A DNA stretch of 64,000 bases from Yoonia sp. R2331 (GTDB taxonomy: Bacteria; Pseudomonadota; Alphaproteobacteria; Rhodobacterales; Rhodobacteraceae). The translations under genes were made by a program, and so were the position numbers. The notes beneath the pieces were generated by a model, which made no database searches, had not been told where the DNA came from, and was given only the letters and a program-made list of their open reading frames with translations. Location of the stretch: positions 1,674,001-1,738,000 of the forward strand of contig NZ_JBGCUN010000001.1 of assembly GCF_041103235.1 (NCBI RefSeq). Direction: 5' to 3'. Of the stretch, positions 3,859 to 63,895 are shown in pieces (positions within the stretch are counted from its first letter, which is position 1; the number at the start of each line of letters is the position of its first letter).

Positions 3859-6800
3859 TCATTCCGCTGCGCGCTTCAATCCCTCAGGGTTGCGTAAATG
3901 TGCCAGCAACTCTTCCCGGCGCTTGGCCGCTTTTGCCGCATTGGCCGCCTTCACTGGACCAAAGCCCCGGATGTCGAGCGGCAGACGCGCCAAAGCGACC
4001 GCGGCGTCCAGGGTCTGCGGGGTCACAATGCGCAGCACCTCGGCCATGTCGCGTTCGTATTCGACAATCAGCGCACGTTCCATGCGCCGCTCAGCGGTGT
4101 AGCCAAAGGGATCAAGGGGCGTGCCACGCAGCCGCTTGAACCGCGCAAGCACCGGAAACGCCCGCGCCATGCGTGCGCCATAAGCCTTCTTACGCGGACG
4201 ACCATCGGCACCGGTCTTGGCCAGCAGTGGCGGCGCAAGGTGATAGGTCAGTTTCAGGTCCCCATCAAAGGTCTCACGCGCTTTGGCCTCTGTGTTCAGC
4301 AACAGGCGCGCGACTTCGTATTCGTCCTTGTACGACAAGAGCTTGTGATACCCTTCTGCCACCGCTTCTTGCAGCGGGCCGTCGCATTGATCCACCAATT
4401 TGCGATAGCGCTTTGCAAGCCGATTGCCCTGATAGGCCACCAGATGATCCGCCCGGAACGCGATCCGCTCTGCCAGCGTTTTGGGCAAATGCGTGACGTC
4501 GGGTGTGATGATCCGCGACACTTCTTCTGGATGCAGGACCGCCCAACGCCCCAGCGCAAACGCGCGTTTGTTGCGTTCCACGGCGGTGCCGTTCAGCGTG
4601 ATGGCGCGCAGGATCGCATCTTCCGACAGCGGGATCGCGCCCTGCTGCCATGCGGCCCCAAAAACCATCATGTTGGAATATATGCTGTCGCCCATCACCG
4701 CCTTGGCCAGCGCGCTGGCGTCAAACATCGCGAGCCCATCGCGCAGCCGCGCCTGAAGCGACAGGGCAAGCTGTTCGGCGGGCAGTTTGAAATCCGTGTT
4801 GCGGGTGAATTCTCCGGTTACAATCTCGTGGCTGTTGACCACCCCGCGGGTGCGCCCGGTGCGCATCAGGCCCAGCGTCTTGGCACCTGCGCTGACCACA
4901 AGATCGCCGCCAATCAGCGCGTCACATTCGCCCGTTCTGACCCGGATCGCGGCGATGTCCTCTGGCGTATCGGCCAGACGGCAATGGATATGCACCGCAC
5001 CACCCTTTTGCGCGAGCCCGGCCATTTCCATCATGCCGGCCCCCTTGCCGTCCAGATGGGCCGCCATCGCCATCACTGCACCAATGGTCACCACCCCGGT
5101 GCCACCGACGCCTGTGATCACCACATTGTGGGTGCCGTTGATCTGCGGCAGCACCGGTGCGGGCAATTCGCCGATGTCCACATCTGCGGTTGCCTGTTTC
5201 TTGATCTGCGCGCCTGCGATGGTCACGAATGATGGGCAAAAGCCGTTCACGCAGGAAAAGTCCTTGTTGCAGGATGATTGGTCAATCGCGCGTTTTCGGC
5301 CCAGTTCGGTCTCTGCCGGAACGATCGACACACAGTTTGATTGCACGCCGCAATCGCCGCAGCCTTCACAGACATCGGTGTTGATAAAGACCCGCTTGTC
5401 GGGGTCCGGGAACAGCCCGCGCTTGCGGCGGCGGCGCTTTTCTGCGGCACAGGTCTGGATGTAGACCAGCGCGCTGACGCCTTTGACCTTGGTCAATTCC
5501 TCTTGCACGCGTGGCAATTCGGCACGTTCGGAAAACATCACCGATTTGGGGAAAAGTTCGGCGTGCACGTCTTCCTTGTCGTCATAGACAACCTCGACCC
5601 GTTTGACGCCCATCGCAACCAATTCGTGGCAGATTTGATCTGCGGTCAGATCACCGTCATTGCCCTGCCCGCCGGTCATGGCGACTGCATCATTGTAAAG
5701 GATCTTATAGGTGATCGTGGTGCCCGCCATCAGCGCAAAGCGGATCGCCTGCACACCGGAATGATTGTATGTGCCGTCACCGATGTTCTGAAACACATGG
5801 CCGGTCTTGCTGAACGGTGCCTCGCCCACCCAATTGGCACCCTCGCCTCCCATCTGGGTAAAGCCAACCGTGTCACGGTCCATCCATTGCACCATGTAGT
5901 GACAGCCGATCCCGGCATAGGCGCGGCTGCCATCAGGGACTTTGGTGGATGAATTATGCGGGCAGCCGGAACAGAAGTATGGCAGACGCGCCGCAAGTTC
6001 AGGCGCATTGTCAGCCTTTTTGGCGGCGGCAATCGCCTCGAGCCCGGCGGTGATACCGCCCGCGTTGCAGCCCTCTTCCTGCAAGATGCCGCCCAGCTTT
6101 TCGGCGATCCAGATCGGGTTCAAGTCGCCCTTCGTCGGAAACACCTCTTCCCGGCGGCCTTCGGAATGCTCGTCGCCCTTATGCCAGCCGTAAACGCGCC
6201 GCCCTTGCCGGTCATCAAAGATCGCTTCTTTGACCTGCACTTCGATCAACTTGCGCTTTTCTTCCACGACCACAATCAGGTCAAGCCCTTCGGCCCATTC
6301 GTGAAAGCTGGCCATATCCAGCGGCCAGACCTGCCCCACCTTGTAGGTGGTGATACCAAGGCGCGTCGCCTCATCCGCGTCGATGCCCAAGAGGTTCAGC
6401 GCGTGCACAAGGTCGAGGTAATTTTTGCCCGCCGCGACAAAGCCGATGCGCGCACCGGGCTTGCCCCATTTGCGCTGATCCATCTTGTTGGCGCGCGAAA
6501 ATGCTTCTGCCGCAAAGCGTTTGTGGTCGATCATCCGCGCCTCTTGCAGCTGCGGCGTGTCGACAAGCCGGATGTTCAATCCGCCCTCTGGCAGCGGTAT
6601 ATCAGGCGTTTCAAAGGTCAGGCGATGCGGGTCGCCGTCGACAACAGAGGTGACTTCAACCGTGTCTTTCATGGTTTTCAGACCGACCCAGACACCAGCA
6701 TAGCGGCTCAGCGCCCAGGCATAGAGGCCATAGTCGATAATCTCCTGCACACCAGCCGGGCTGACGATGGGCATGTAGGCGTCCAGCATCGCCCAGTCGG

Positions 6801-7275
6801 ATTGGTGCAAGGTGGTCGAGCTTTCGCCGGTGTGATCATCGCCCATCGCCATGATGACACCGCCGTGCTGGCTGCTGCCTGCCATGTTGGCGTGGCGCAT
6901 CACATCACCGGACCGGTCGACACCGGGGCCCTTGCCGTACCACAGACCAAAGACACCGTCATACTTGCCCTCGCCCCGCAACTCGGCCTGTTGGCTGCCC
7001 CACAGCGCTGTTGCGGCAAGGTCTTCGTTCAGACCGGGTTGAAAGGTGATCTGGTTCTTTACCAGAACCTCGGACGCGCGGGTCATTTGCATGTCCACCG
7101 CGCCAAGTGGTGATCCGCGATAGCCGGTCACATAGCCCGCTGTGTCCAGCCCCGCCAGCGCGTCCCGCGCGCGTTGCATCAGCATCAGCCGCACCAGTGC
7201 CTGAGTGCCATTCAGCAACACGTGCCGCTTGTTCAGATCATAGCGGTCGTTCAGCGAGATCTCTTCCCGGCCCAT
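3859..7275 (-). CDS. Indolepyruvate ferredoxin oxidoreductase, fused alpha and beta subunits
   Basis: At 1138 aa this is the single-chain alphaproteobacterial form that fuses IorA and IorB. It should decarboxylate aryl-pyruvates (possibly other 2-oxo acids) to acyl-CoA and reduce ferredoxin. The N-terminal half has pyrimidine- and TPP-binding regions, with GDGTYNHSG near residue 497. A ferredoxin-like insert follows: CEGCGDC near 635 and a second cysteine group (CNKDFSCVNGFCP) near 670-683. The IorB gamma-like domain starts near 715 (VITGVGGTGVV). The start has GGGAGGTG before it. It is divergent from a LysR gene, with a perfect inverted repeat between them. Confidence 0.92.
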   Translation of the reverse strand: MGREEISLNDRYDLNKRHVLLNGTQALVRLMLMQRARDALAGLDTAGYVTGYRGSPLGAVDMQMTRASEVLVKNQITFQPGLNEDLAATALWGSQQAELRGEGKYDGVFGLWYGKGPGVDRSGDVMRHANMAGSSQHGGVIMAMGDDHTGESSTTLHQSDWAMLDAYMPIVSPAGVQEIIDYGLYAWALSRYAGVWVGLKTMKDTVEVTSVVDGDPHRLTFETPDIPLPEGGLNIRLVDTPQLQEARMIDHKRFAAEAFSRANKMDQRKWGKPGARIGFVAAGKNYLDLVHALNLLGIDADEATRLGITTYKVGQVWPLDMASFHEWAEGLDLIVVVEEKRKLIEVQVKEAIFDDRQGRRVYGWHKGDEHSEGRREEVFPTKGDLNPIWIAEKLGGILQEEGCNAGGITAGLEAIAAAKKADNAPELAARLPYFCSGCPHNSSTKVPDGSRAYAGIGCHYMVQWMDRDTVGFTQMGGEGANWVGEAPFSKTGHVFQNIGDGTYNHSGVQAIRFALMAGTTITYKILYNDAVAMTGGQGNDGDLTADQICHELVAMGVKRVEVVYDDKEDVHAELFPKSVMFSERAELPRVQEELTKVKGVSALVYIQTCAAEKRRRRKRGLFPDPDKRVFINTDVCEGCGDCGVQSNCVSIVPAETELGRKRAIDQSSCNKDFSCVNGFCPSFVTIAGAQIKKQATADVDIGELPAPVLPQINGTHNVVITGVGGTGVVTIGAVMAMAAHLDGKGAGMMEMAGLAQKGGAVHIHCRLADTPEDIAAIRVRTGECDALIGGDLVVSAGAKTLGLMRTGRTRGVVNSHEIVTGEFTRNTDFKLPAEQLALSLQARLRDGLAMFDASALAKAVMGDSIYSNMMVFGAAWQQGAIPLSEDAILRAITLNGTAVERNKRAFALGRWAVLHPEEVSRIITPDVTHLPKTLAERIAFRADHLVAYQGNRLAKRYRKLVDQCDGPLQEAVAEGYHKLLSYKDEYEVARLLLNTEAKARETFDGDLKLTYHLAPPLLAKTGADGRPRKKAYGARMARAFPVLARFKRLRGTPLDPFGYTAERRMERALIVEYERDMAEVLRIVTPQTLDAAVALARLPLDIRGFGPVKAANAAKAAKRREELLAHLRNPEGLKRAAE

Positions 7276-7332: not shown

Positions 7333-7430
7333 AAAGCACGAATTGCTGATCTGGTTCATTTGCATTGTGGCACGTAATCAGCGTAATGAACGAGCCATAA
7401 GAGCATCAAAACCTTTGCAACGGACACGTG

Positions 7431-8336
7431 ATGGACTGGGACAAGCTAAGAATATTTCACGCCGTCGCGGATGCCGGATCGCTGACGCATGCCGGTGACA
7501 CGCTGCATTTGTCCCAATCGGCGGTCAGTCGGCAAATCCGCGCGCTCGAAGAATCACTCAATACCACCCTGTTTCACCGTCACGCGCGGGGGCTGATTCT
7601 GACCGAACAGGGAGAATTGCTGTTCGACGCCACCAAATCTATGAACAAGCGGCTCGAGGCCGCCAGCGCCCGCATTCGCGACAGCGAGGAAGAGGTGTTT
7701 GGCGATCTGCGGGTCACGACGACAACCGGCTTTGGCACGCTCTGGCTGGCCCCGCGGCTGCCCAAGCTTTATGAACTCTACCCTGACCTCAAGATTGATC
7801 TGATGCTCGAGGAACGGGTGCTGGACCTGCCCATGCGCGAGGCAGACGTGGCCATTCGCATGAAAGAGCCAAGTCAGGCCGATCTGATCCGCAAGCGGTT
7901 GATGTCGGTGCGGATGCGGCTTTACGCATCACGCAATTATCTTGAAGAAGTGGGGGAAATCGAAAGCATCGAAGATGTCGCCGATCACCGTCTGATTTGC
8001 CAAAGCCCCGCGTCCACGCAGGTGGCGGCGGGTGCCGCAATGGTCCAGCACCTGCTGACCTATGACGTGCAATCGCTTTTTACGGTCAACAACTACTTTG
8101 GCGTGCTGCAAGGTGTGCTGAACAAACTGGGCATTGGTGTGCTGCCGGATTACGTGACCGAAGACTTCCCCGAACTGGTGCGCATCCTGCCTGATGTGGA
8201 ATCCGGTGAAGTGCCCGTCTTCCTCGCCTACCCCGAGGAATTGCGCCAATCCAAACGGATCAGCGCCTTCCGGGACTTCGTTCAGGACGAGATCATCGCG
8301 CATCGCCGCAAAATCCGTGAGACCGCAGCGGGTTAG
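7431..8336 (+). CDS. LysR-family transcriptional regulator
   Basis: The 301-aa product has an N-terminal winged helix-turn-helix (about residues 1-60, with LSQSAVSRQIRALE as the recognition region) and a periplasmic-binding-like effector domain from about 90. The frame could begin one codon earlier at GTG 7428, but ATG 7431 gives the common MDWDKLRIF start. It is divergent from the indolepyruvate oxidoreductase gene and shares a 155-base intergenic region containing an inverted repeat. By position it may regulate that gene and itself. The effector is unknown. Confidence 0.9.
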   Translation: MDWDKLRIFHAVADAGSLTHAGDTLHLSQSAVSRQIRALEESLNTTLFHRHARGLILTEQGELLFDATKSMNKRLEAASARIRDSEEEVFGDLRVTTTTGFGTLWLAPRLPKLYELYPDLKIDLMLEERVLDLPMREADVAIRMKEPSQADLIRKRLMSVRMRLYASRNYLEEVGEIESIEDVADHRLICQSPASTQVAAGAAMVQHLLTYDVQSLFTVNNYFGVLQGVLNKLGIGVLPDYVTEDFPELVRILPDVESGEVPVFLAYPEELRQSKRISAFRDFVQDEIIAHRRKIRETAAG

Positions 8337-8390
8337 CCAAGCCATGCACCTGCCGCATAGCGGGTTTGCATCTTTAGATGCGCTGTTTTT

Positions 8391-8419
8391 CTTGAATGGT
8401 CAAAAAACCAGCCCTATGT
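8391..8419 (+). promoter_or_regulatory. Sigma-32 (RpoH)-like promoter before a candidate sRNA
   Basis: CTTGAAT (8391-8397), 14 bases, then CCCTATGT (8412-8419). This closely follows the heat-shock consensus CTTGAAA-N13/15-CCCCATNT, with one mismatch in each element. There is no open gene downstream, only a short transcript-sized stretch ending in a terminator. Confidence 0.6.
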
Positions 8420-8425
8420 GCAGTC

Positions 8426-8507
8426 GTGAGGCGGATGATGCTTTTGCGCTCTCCTCCTCAACCTCCCTGTTGGACTTTGCCGGGCCTTGTGCCCGGCATT
8501 TTTTTTT
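8426..8507 (+). ncRNA. Candidate stress-induced small RNA with CU-rich anti-Shine-Dalgarno segments
   Basis: From a start predicted near 8426 to the terminator, this would be an RNA of about 80 nt. It contains CUCUCCUCCUC (8449-8459) and AACCUCCCUG (8460-8469), both complementary to ribosome-binding sites. The 5' segment GAGGCGGA (8428-8435) can pair with UCCUCCUC (8452-8459) with one mismatch, so the anti-SD bases may be partly hidden in a hairpin. Rhodobacter sphaeroides has RpoH-dependent sRNAs (the CcsR group) defined by a CCUCCUCCC motif, and this candidate resembles them in control and motif. It has no ORF of note. Alternatively it is an independently initiated 3' UTR piece of the LysR mRNA. 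Confidence 0.5.
8479..8507 (+). terminator. Rho-independent terminator
   Basis: GCCGGGC and GCCCGGC form a 7-bp stem with a 5-base loop, followed by a nine-T run (8499-8507). It ends the candidate sRNA and any read-through from the LysR gene. Confidence 0.9.
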
Positions 8508-8520
8508 GGCCGCAATCGGC

Positions 8521-9123
8521 TTATACCGCGTCAAAGACCGCGCGCAATGATTGGTCACCTGTCCAATGATGGGCCACCCAGCCGCAAGCCCTTGCCGCCT
8601 CAACATTTGGCAATCTGTCATCGACAAAAACGAACGTCGCCTGGGGTTTTCCAACACGTGCTTCTACCGCCGCAAAGAACGCCGGGTCCGGCTTTTTCGC
8701 GCCAACTGCCGCCGACCAGATTGCACCATCGACCATGTCACCAAGGCCAAGATCGTCCAGCAGATAGGCCGCACGCAGATGTTCCTGATTGGTGGCAAGC
8801 CAGACCGGCACGCCCGCTGCCCTGATCTCGGCAACCTCGCGCAACATGTCTGTGTTGAGCGTTGCGTCCTGCGCAAACCAATAGTCCCGTAGCGCGGTCG
8901 CGCTGACCTCCGTTCCGATCTCATCCAAAGCAGCTTCAAGCATCGGCATCATCTCCGCCTTGCCGATGATAATCTCAGCCCAATATTTGTGGAAAAACGC
9001 ATCCAGCAAGTCGCGTTTCGGAATGCCCAAATCAGCCTCAAGCTGGTCCGACCAGCTGCCACCATTTGGCCCGGCCGTGACCAACACGCCGTCCACATCC
9101 AACATCAGCACATATTCGATCAT
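8521..9123 (-). CDS. HAD-superfamily hydrolase
   Basis: The 200-aa protein has the four HAD motifs in order: DVDG (D9, D11) for the phosphoaspartate nucleophile, an ATN threonine/asparagine motif, a lysine in GAKKPDP, and [11 protein letters not shown] with paired aspartates. A helical cap lies between motifs I and II. This is the epoxide-hydrolase-like/phosphatase group, and substrate cannot be assigned. A TTG one codon upstream is in frame, but ATG 9123 with AGGCGGG before it is the better start. The gene is monocistronic by layout, between a terminator and the divergent purL. Confidence 0.85.
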
Positions 9124-63508: not shown

Positions 63509-63585
63509 TGGCGCGGTTGACGGGGCTCGAACCCGCGACCCCCGGCGTGACAGGCCGGTACTCTAACCAACTGAGCTACAACCGC
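63509..63585 (-). tRNA. tRNA-Asp (GTC), copy 1
   Basis: Read on the minus strand: acceptor GCGGTTG pairs with CAACCGC, D-stem GCTC/GAGT, anticodon stem CCGGC/GCCGG with loop CTGTCAC (anticodon GTC), T-arm GCGGG-TTCGAAC-CCCGT. Discriminator G and CCA are encoded. A -35/-10 pair lies upstream. A QueA substrate by anticodon. Confidence 0.97.
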
Positions 63586-63818: not shown

Positions 63819-63895
63819 TGGCGCGGTTGACGGGGCTCGAACCCGCGACCCCCGGCGTGACAGGCCGGTACTCTAACCAACTGAGCTACAACCGC
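63819..63895 (-). tRNA. tRNA-Asp (GTC), copy 2
   Basis: This copy is identical base for base to copy 1 over the whole 77 bases including CCA, shifted by 310 bp. It has its own promoter and terminator. Confidence 0.97.

Follow-up and report, generated by a model that had tools for sequence, protein, structure and literature searches.

The small RNAs (sRNAs) closest to the element described here come from the stress response of Rhodobacter sphaeroides and from the rhizobia. Two of them, SorY and SorX, are singlet-oxygen sRNAs. SorY (RSs1543) is reported to depend on RpoHI/RpoHII and to be bound by Hfq (PMC5036791, PMC8307010). SorX (RSs2461) has the OmpR-like RSP_0847 as its host gene (PMC6238624), and CcsR1-4 are RpoH-dependent stress sRNAs described as coming from the 3' untranslated region (3' UTR) of the DUF1127 gene ccaF1. 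In Agrobacterium and Sinorhizobium, AbcR1 and AbcR2 lie behind the LsrB/VtlR gene and carry CU-rich anti-Shine-Dalgarno (anti-SD) motifs, some within the first hairpin and some in the segment that separates the hairpins; AbcR2 is reported to depend on RpoH1, with the promoter CTTGAA-N16-CCTATAT (PMC5461406, PMC3712013, PMC8844928, PMC7486931). Here we analyse an element at positions 8391-8507 of a 64,000-nucleotide (nt) stretch of the Yoonia sp. R2331 genome, called the window throughout. We conclude that this element most probably is the SorY ortholog of the genome, an approximately 82-nt stress sRNA that has its own RpoH-type promoter and terminator. We put the probability at roughly 85%, a figure that covers the whole explanation, including targets, Hfq and LysR input.

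The element follows directly on a LysR-type regulator gene of the same strand, and a HAD gene and then purL lie downstream (Table 1). The predicted RNA, whose 5' end we placed from the R. sphaeroides start site given below, has a folding energy of −33.4 kcal/mol (z −4.85; equal stability in none of 200 shuffles); its fold consists of a 5' hairpin, a mostly unpaired segment and the terminator hairpin. The Rfam model of SorX (RF02784) matches 8451-8504 with 56 bits, over the gathering cut-off of 46.6. A sequence-only reading had proposed a promoter, a short stretch and a terminator at this place, and the coordinates, the fold and the Rfam match agree with it. Terminator-like sites as such are at chance level in the window (2 found; shuffle mean 2.3), so we place weight on the combination of features and on their conservation. 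The core matches the window at this single place. Two mechanical open reading frames overlap the element (8194-8550 on the forward strand and 8400-8657 on the reverse strand); the conservation of promoter, hairpin, core and terminator argues against a coding role.

Table 1. Features of the predicted sRNA locus (window coordinates).
Feature	Position	Strand	Basis and remarks
SorY-type sRNA, predicted 82 nt	8426..8507	+	Rfam SorX 56 bits; SorY 47.6 bits
−35 element CTTGAAT, RpoH (sigma-32) type	8391..8397	+	by sequence; conserved in orthologs
−10 element CCCTATGT	8412..8419	+	14-nt spacer, equal to R. sphaeroides (L127)
5' hairpin; UCCUCCUC (8452-8459) in its 3' arm	8427..8460	+	folding
Conserved 15-nt core CCUCCCUGUUGGACU, proposed seed against ribosome-binding sites	8462..8476	+	conservation
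Intrinsic terminator, 8-bp stem, 5-nt loop, T run	8478..8507	+	stem 8478-8498, T run 8499-8507
LysR-type regulator, LsrB/VtlR-like	7428..8336	+	PDB 9HH1 match; Pfam LysR_substrate, HTH_1
Putative LysR-type box GCATAGCGGGTTTGCAT (GCAT-N3-GG-N3-T, T-N11-A)	8355..8371	+	about −71 to −55 from inferred start

The identity of the RNA emerges from the comparison with R. sphaeroides. Matches to the SorY model (RF02651) at E<=0.001 occur in 138 of 149 genomes of the family, and a single one exceeds the cut-off (G051:C4:1632645, 115 bits). This match begins 3 nt behind the SorY start site published for R. sphaeroides, 1,632,642 (PMC6238624), and we therefore take G051 to be R. sphaeroides 2.4.1. There, SorY sits between a LysR gene whose product is 79% identical to that of the window and a PurL gene (80-84% identical), and upstream of it stands CTTGAAT-N14-CCCTAAAT, with a −10 of the CCCTA type and the same spacer as in the window. 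Because the LysR and purL flanks and the promoter are the same, we regard the window RNA as the positional ortholog of SorY. The two loci further share the 5' hairpin, the core and the terminator; they differ in the letters of the 5' hairpin, in the HAD gene that precedes purL in the window, and in the Rfam score and the takP target weighed below. The HAD gene lies outside the conserved gene set: of the two flanks whose conservation had been suggested as a check, LysR is conserved, and HAD was found by tblastn (E<=1e-8) in only 2 of 157 loci, both of them this genome's own place.

We used the LysR protein as the search anchor, so that the sRNA itself was not a selection criterion. The window LysR is matched in 144 of the 149 family genomes at E<=1e-80, and 90 of these 144 were examined: 30 loci including the genome's own, and 60 others, into which nine genomes with LysR and without a SorY match were put deliberately. 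The core CCTCCCTGTTGGACT was found within 600 nt downstream of LysR in 80 of the 90 loci (exact in 75, with one mismatch in 4 and with two in 1), whereas the best of 450 shuffles reaches it only at three mismatches. The expected conservation of the CU-rich segment in relatives is borne out by these counts, and the second proposed anti-SD motif, CCUCCC (8462-8467), is part of the conserved core. Ten loci lack the core under this criterion (within 600 nt, at most two mismatches): in two the SorY match lies 1.5 and 1.2 kb farther downstream (L238 in G105 and L245 in G145), one stops at a contig edge (L260), one has a one-base deletion in the core (L278), and L261-L264, L267 and L268 have no core behind LysR. 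In L238 and L245 the SorY match, more than 1 kb behind LysR, is placed as if an insertion lay between.

Conservation extends to the promoter and to the fold. For the promoter pair, 66 of the 80 orthologs reach a score of 11 or more out of 13, compared with 6.4% of shuffles; the 42 nt before the core fold with z<-1 in 79 of 80 (mean z −3.0, against mononucleotide shuffles), with variable letters; and two of six consensus pairs of the terminator are changed on both sides in relatives. Covariation of the 5' hairpin was uninformative: on 51 sequences aligned with MAFFT (R. sphaeroides and 50 of the 80 loci), RNAalifold kept the terminator and a small CC/GG pair only; per-sequence folding was used instead. 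By folding, the 5' hairpin is kept in shape, not in sequence, and UCCUCCUC, which had been read as the first anti-SD motif, is one paired arm of it, a place where relatives usually have other letters. The description as an RpoH-type sRNA with anti-SD segments holds, by sequence, for the promoter and for CCUCCC; UCCUCCUC is no free anti-SD motif. Loci collected by an exact 20-mer (L009-L126) serve for gene context only and are no evidence for the core; among 149 places, LysR lies within 1 kb at 136, an OmpR-type gene at 5, and neither within 1 kb at 8 (several of these at the edge of a stretch; L038 has LysR further off).

We propose that transcription begins at 8426 from the RpoH-type promoter and ends at the intrinsic terminator, yielding an sRNA of about 82 nt; that the 5' hairpin would frame and stabilise the RNA; and that the core would pair with GGGAG-type ribosome-binding sites, chiefly of solute-binding-protein mRNAs, and block translation, probably with the participation of Hfq. 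The LsrB/VtlR-type LysR probably acts too, by way of the conserved box that lies some 55-71 nt before the start. Since both an RpoH-type promoter and a LysR input are proposed, nutrient uptake could be reduced by heat or oxidative stress as well as by redox signals.

The reported target of SorY in R. sphaeroides is takP (PMC6238624). The duplex of its start region (L326) with the core has an energy of −22.8 kcal/mol and is more stable than those of 317 of 317 background start regions, all taken from the window's genome rather than from R. sphaeroides. The L326 product matches PDB 2hzk, which we take to be TakP, over all 365 residues (E=7e-255). Among the listed genes of the window's own genome, L351, L358 and L331 rank 1st to 5th against the 317 background regions. 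GGGAG, to which the core is complementary, precedes the start of 18 of 30 solute-binding-protein genes in this genome, compared with 19 of 400 sampled genes (p=3e-14) and 2 of the 49 window genes; by family, the counts are 10/12 for DctP, 5/9 for Peripla_BP_6 and 3/9 for SBP_bac_5. These three families were the only ones tried, the 400 sampled genes include the window, on visual inspection at least 4 of the 19 background genes seem to encode binding proteins, and start codons were picked by the best Shine-Dalgarno (SD) match, alike in both sets save for the permitted shift. For the 28 of the 30 genes whose SD score is 4 or higher, core duplex energies lie below background (p=1e-6); the reversed core gives p=0.50 and a generic anti-SD string p=0.08. 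The exact AACAGGGAGG occurs at four places in this genome, two being sRNA genes and one lying before a binding-protein gene, and at eight in G051, two of them SorX and SorY. Duplexes of the whole sRNA with 21 DctP start regions were discarded, as their energies ignore folding within each RNA and are unusable. Taken as sequence evidence, these results fit an AbcR-like control of uptake, without showing SorY to be its agent, and they offer a directly testable regulon of transporter genes.

Several results weigh against this explanation. The window element misses the Rfam cut-off of SorY by far (47.6 vs. 111 bits). No gene of this genome is a clear takP ortholog (33% and 31% identity at best), and the TakP-like L329 ranks only 53rd of 317 in core pairing. 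GGGAG precedes only 3 of 9 DctP genes in R. sphaeroides and, as counted above, only 3 of 9 SBP_bac_5 genes here; the preference may have another cause. A perfect 11-nt complement of the core before ATG shows no clear excess (103 of 149 genomes, vs. 84 of 149 for a one-base-changed pattern), many matches of the unchanged pattern being, by their letters, the antisense strands of SorY and SorX; and the core itself is shared with SorX. Alternatively, the core may be kept because a protein such as Hfq or RNase E needs it, rather than as a seed, with GGGAG sites of other origin: the near-invariance of the core across the family exceeds the need of a short seed, and the complement test came out weakly. 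We consider such a role unlikely in view of the fit of the core to takP and of the enrichment of GGGAG and of pairing at solute-binding-protein starts.

It is a good deal less probable still that the element belongs mainly to the LysR mRNA, as its 3' UTR and terminator, from which the sRNA would be processed. Of the 136 places linked to LysR, 132 have a core that begins 99-296 nt after the LysR match ends, as such an origin would suggest, and SorX does arise from a 3' UTR; however, a conserved RpoH-type promoter and a LysR box stand between LysR and the sRNA, and SorY is reported as directly transcribed, without further processing (PMC8307010).

Identity with SorX, as the Rfam table would have it, is very improbable, although the window element exceeds the SorX cut-off and shares its core and terminator. 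The SorX model matches this genome at three places: C3:118171 (63.8 bits), C1:1682451, which is the window element (56 bits), and C1:1344089 (41 bits, under the cut-off). The first and best copy lies 3' of an OmpR-type response regulator (Response_reg, Trans_reg_C) that shares 86% identity with the gene preceding the core at the SorX place of R. sphaeroides (L166), whereas the window copy follows LysR, like SorY; we therefore rejected SorX for the window copy. Orphan membership in the CcsR group, which the sequence-only reading had suggested and which the RpoH-type promoter and CU-rich segments would suit, is equally improbable and was rejected on gene context: here the flanks are LysR and HAD, with no DUF1127 gene and no cluster, the SorX and SorY models match, and the synteny is that of SorY. 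The element itself is of a known kind, a SorY ortholog in a conserved locus, and its description as an orphan CcsR-like RNA is not supported.

As a separate observation, TCCCTGTCRGACT occurs at three further places of the genome: G000:C1:1343977, G000:C1:1344116 and G000:C2:91595 (L007). The first two lie about 140 nt apart on opposite strands (L003 1387-1399, forward; 1501-1574, reverse), and one of this pair is the SorX match of 41 bits. The sRNA module also appears duplicated behind LysR elsewhere, with three separate SorX-model matches at a lax threshold in L388 (2348-2953).

The regulator gene links the SorY locus to a wider setting. The best PDB match of the window LysR is 9HH1 (E=1.1e-70; next LysR structure 6.4e-27), the A. 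tumefaciens LsrB (PMC11975290). This LysR was matched at E<=1e-45 in 108 of 190 genomes of a class sample, and 40 of these loci were fetched, none from Rhodobacteraceae. The exact CCTCCCTGTT lies at most 600 nt behind LysR in 23 of the 40 (0 of 800 dinucleotide shuffles), and a core with a TT, TA or AT ending at most 700 nt behind it in 27 of the 40; CTCCCA shortly precedes the core in 21 class loci, 18 of which read CTCCCAGACGTGAAGCCTCCCTG. No Rfam family exceeded its gathering cut-off in any of the 40 LsrB loci; at a lax threshold on 20 of them, SorX was the best match, with E 2e-7 in L390.

From the 27 elements, none from Rhodobacteraceae, we built a class model, R2, which replaced R1 (3 pairs); its structure was written by hand after viewing the alignment. 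In R2, 10 of 14 pairs are changed on both sides (shuffled mean 4.7); with the partners slid by +1, 12 pairs are changed on both sides rather than 10, yet 45% of cells pair rather than 83%. R2 finds a sole place in the window (8453-8513, E=6e-9; next 3.6), and in 409 kb of this genome, including the added SorX and third-copy loci, those two only (1e-7, 2e-4). It matches 80 of 80 core-bearing SorY loci (E<=0.0052; L272 twice), a check of the model on loci preselected for the core and no independent count. The window match spans core and terminator, the model hairpin being mostly deleted, and so indicates a shared 3' module and not yet the descent of the whole RNA. Two class-model matches stand in L272 (240-308 and 424-483). 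The hairpin ACGUCUCCCAGACGU recurs just before the core in L387-L423, where a GATGTTGC...GCAGCATC hairpin often lies further upstream, possibly marking a longer conserved RNA outside Rfam.

The resemblance to AbcR1/AbcR2 (alpha-r15; Rhizobiaceae, Brucellaceae) lies in the position behind an LsrB/VtlR gene and in the CU-rich segment between 5' hairpin and terminator; AbcR2 is likewise reported to have an RpoH1-type promoter. The silencing of transporter mRNAs at the ribosome-binding site reported for AbcR would have a parallel in the targets proposed here, for which the GGGAG and pairing enrichment is the evidence. However, the reported AbcR motifs M1 (CUCCCA) and M2 (GUUCCC) are both absent from 8426-8507, and we therefore do not file the window RNA as AbcR; it also differs in being a single copy, in having HAD and purL downstream instead of arsR, and in lacking a trxB signature before LysR. 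On balance we lean towards the view that SorY and its copy SorX form the Rhodobacterales branch of an ancient class-wide module, an LsrB/VtlR-type LysR gene followed by an anti-SD sRNA with the core CCUCCCUGUU, of which AbcR1/AbcR2 would be the rhizobial form. If so, the RpoH1 and LsrB inputs of S. meliloti AbcR would be united on one SorY promoter, and oxidative stress would be tied to nutrient uptake throughout the Alphaproteobacteria. One regulator gene and one core may in this way join two literatures, that on the photooxidative-stress sRNAs of Rhodobacter (SorX, SorY) and that on AbcR of rhizobia and Brucella; among titles and abstract openings, we found none that links SorY with AbcR or LsrB/VtlR. 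The combination of an LsrB/VtlR-type LysR with the core across the class, and the GGGAG preference of solute-binding-protein genes, look new.

LsrB has been called unique to Rhizobiales on the basis of a tree with three LsrB sequences and nine of OxyR (PMC11975290). Our sequence data speak against this, and suggest that a large part of the class has LsrB orthologs. In a tree of 51 rows, whose outgroup is two paralogs with very long branches, the nine Rhodobacteraceae LysR form one group (100/100) among trxB-linked LysR. trxB is reported to precede vtlR/lsrB (PMC7486931); a thioredoxin-reductase signature lies upstream of LysR in 29 of the 40 class loci and beside it in 0 of 119 Rhodobacterales loci.

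The putative box upstream of the promoter has the form GCATNNCNGNNNT in 62 of the 80 orthologous loci, mostly 99-111 nt before the core, vs. 0.43% of shuffles; its GCAT pattern was read off the same data, and the count is partly circular. GCAT-N3-[TG]G-N3-T, which is close to the LsrB consensus of the literature (GCAT-N3-TG-N3-T) and, with T or G allowed at a single position, was the only form of it tried, occurs in 43 of 80, vs. 4.6% of shuffles, and in only 4 of 27 class loci. The LsrB box of S. meliloti is reported at −61 to −49 (PMC8844928).

Divergent from LysR, the window carries an indolepyruvate ferredoxin oxidoreductase gene (3859-7275, reverse strand; NCBIfam) whose start is preceded by a GGGAGG site; in R. 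sphaeroides the same place is taken by a gene of similar N-terminus (L157). Two tRNA genes near the far end of the window (63512-63585 and 63822-63895, reverse strand) lie 236 bases apart and have equal Rfam scores of 69.8 bits.
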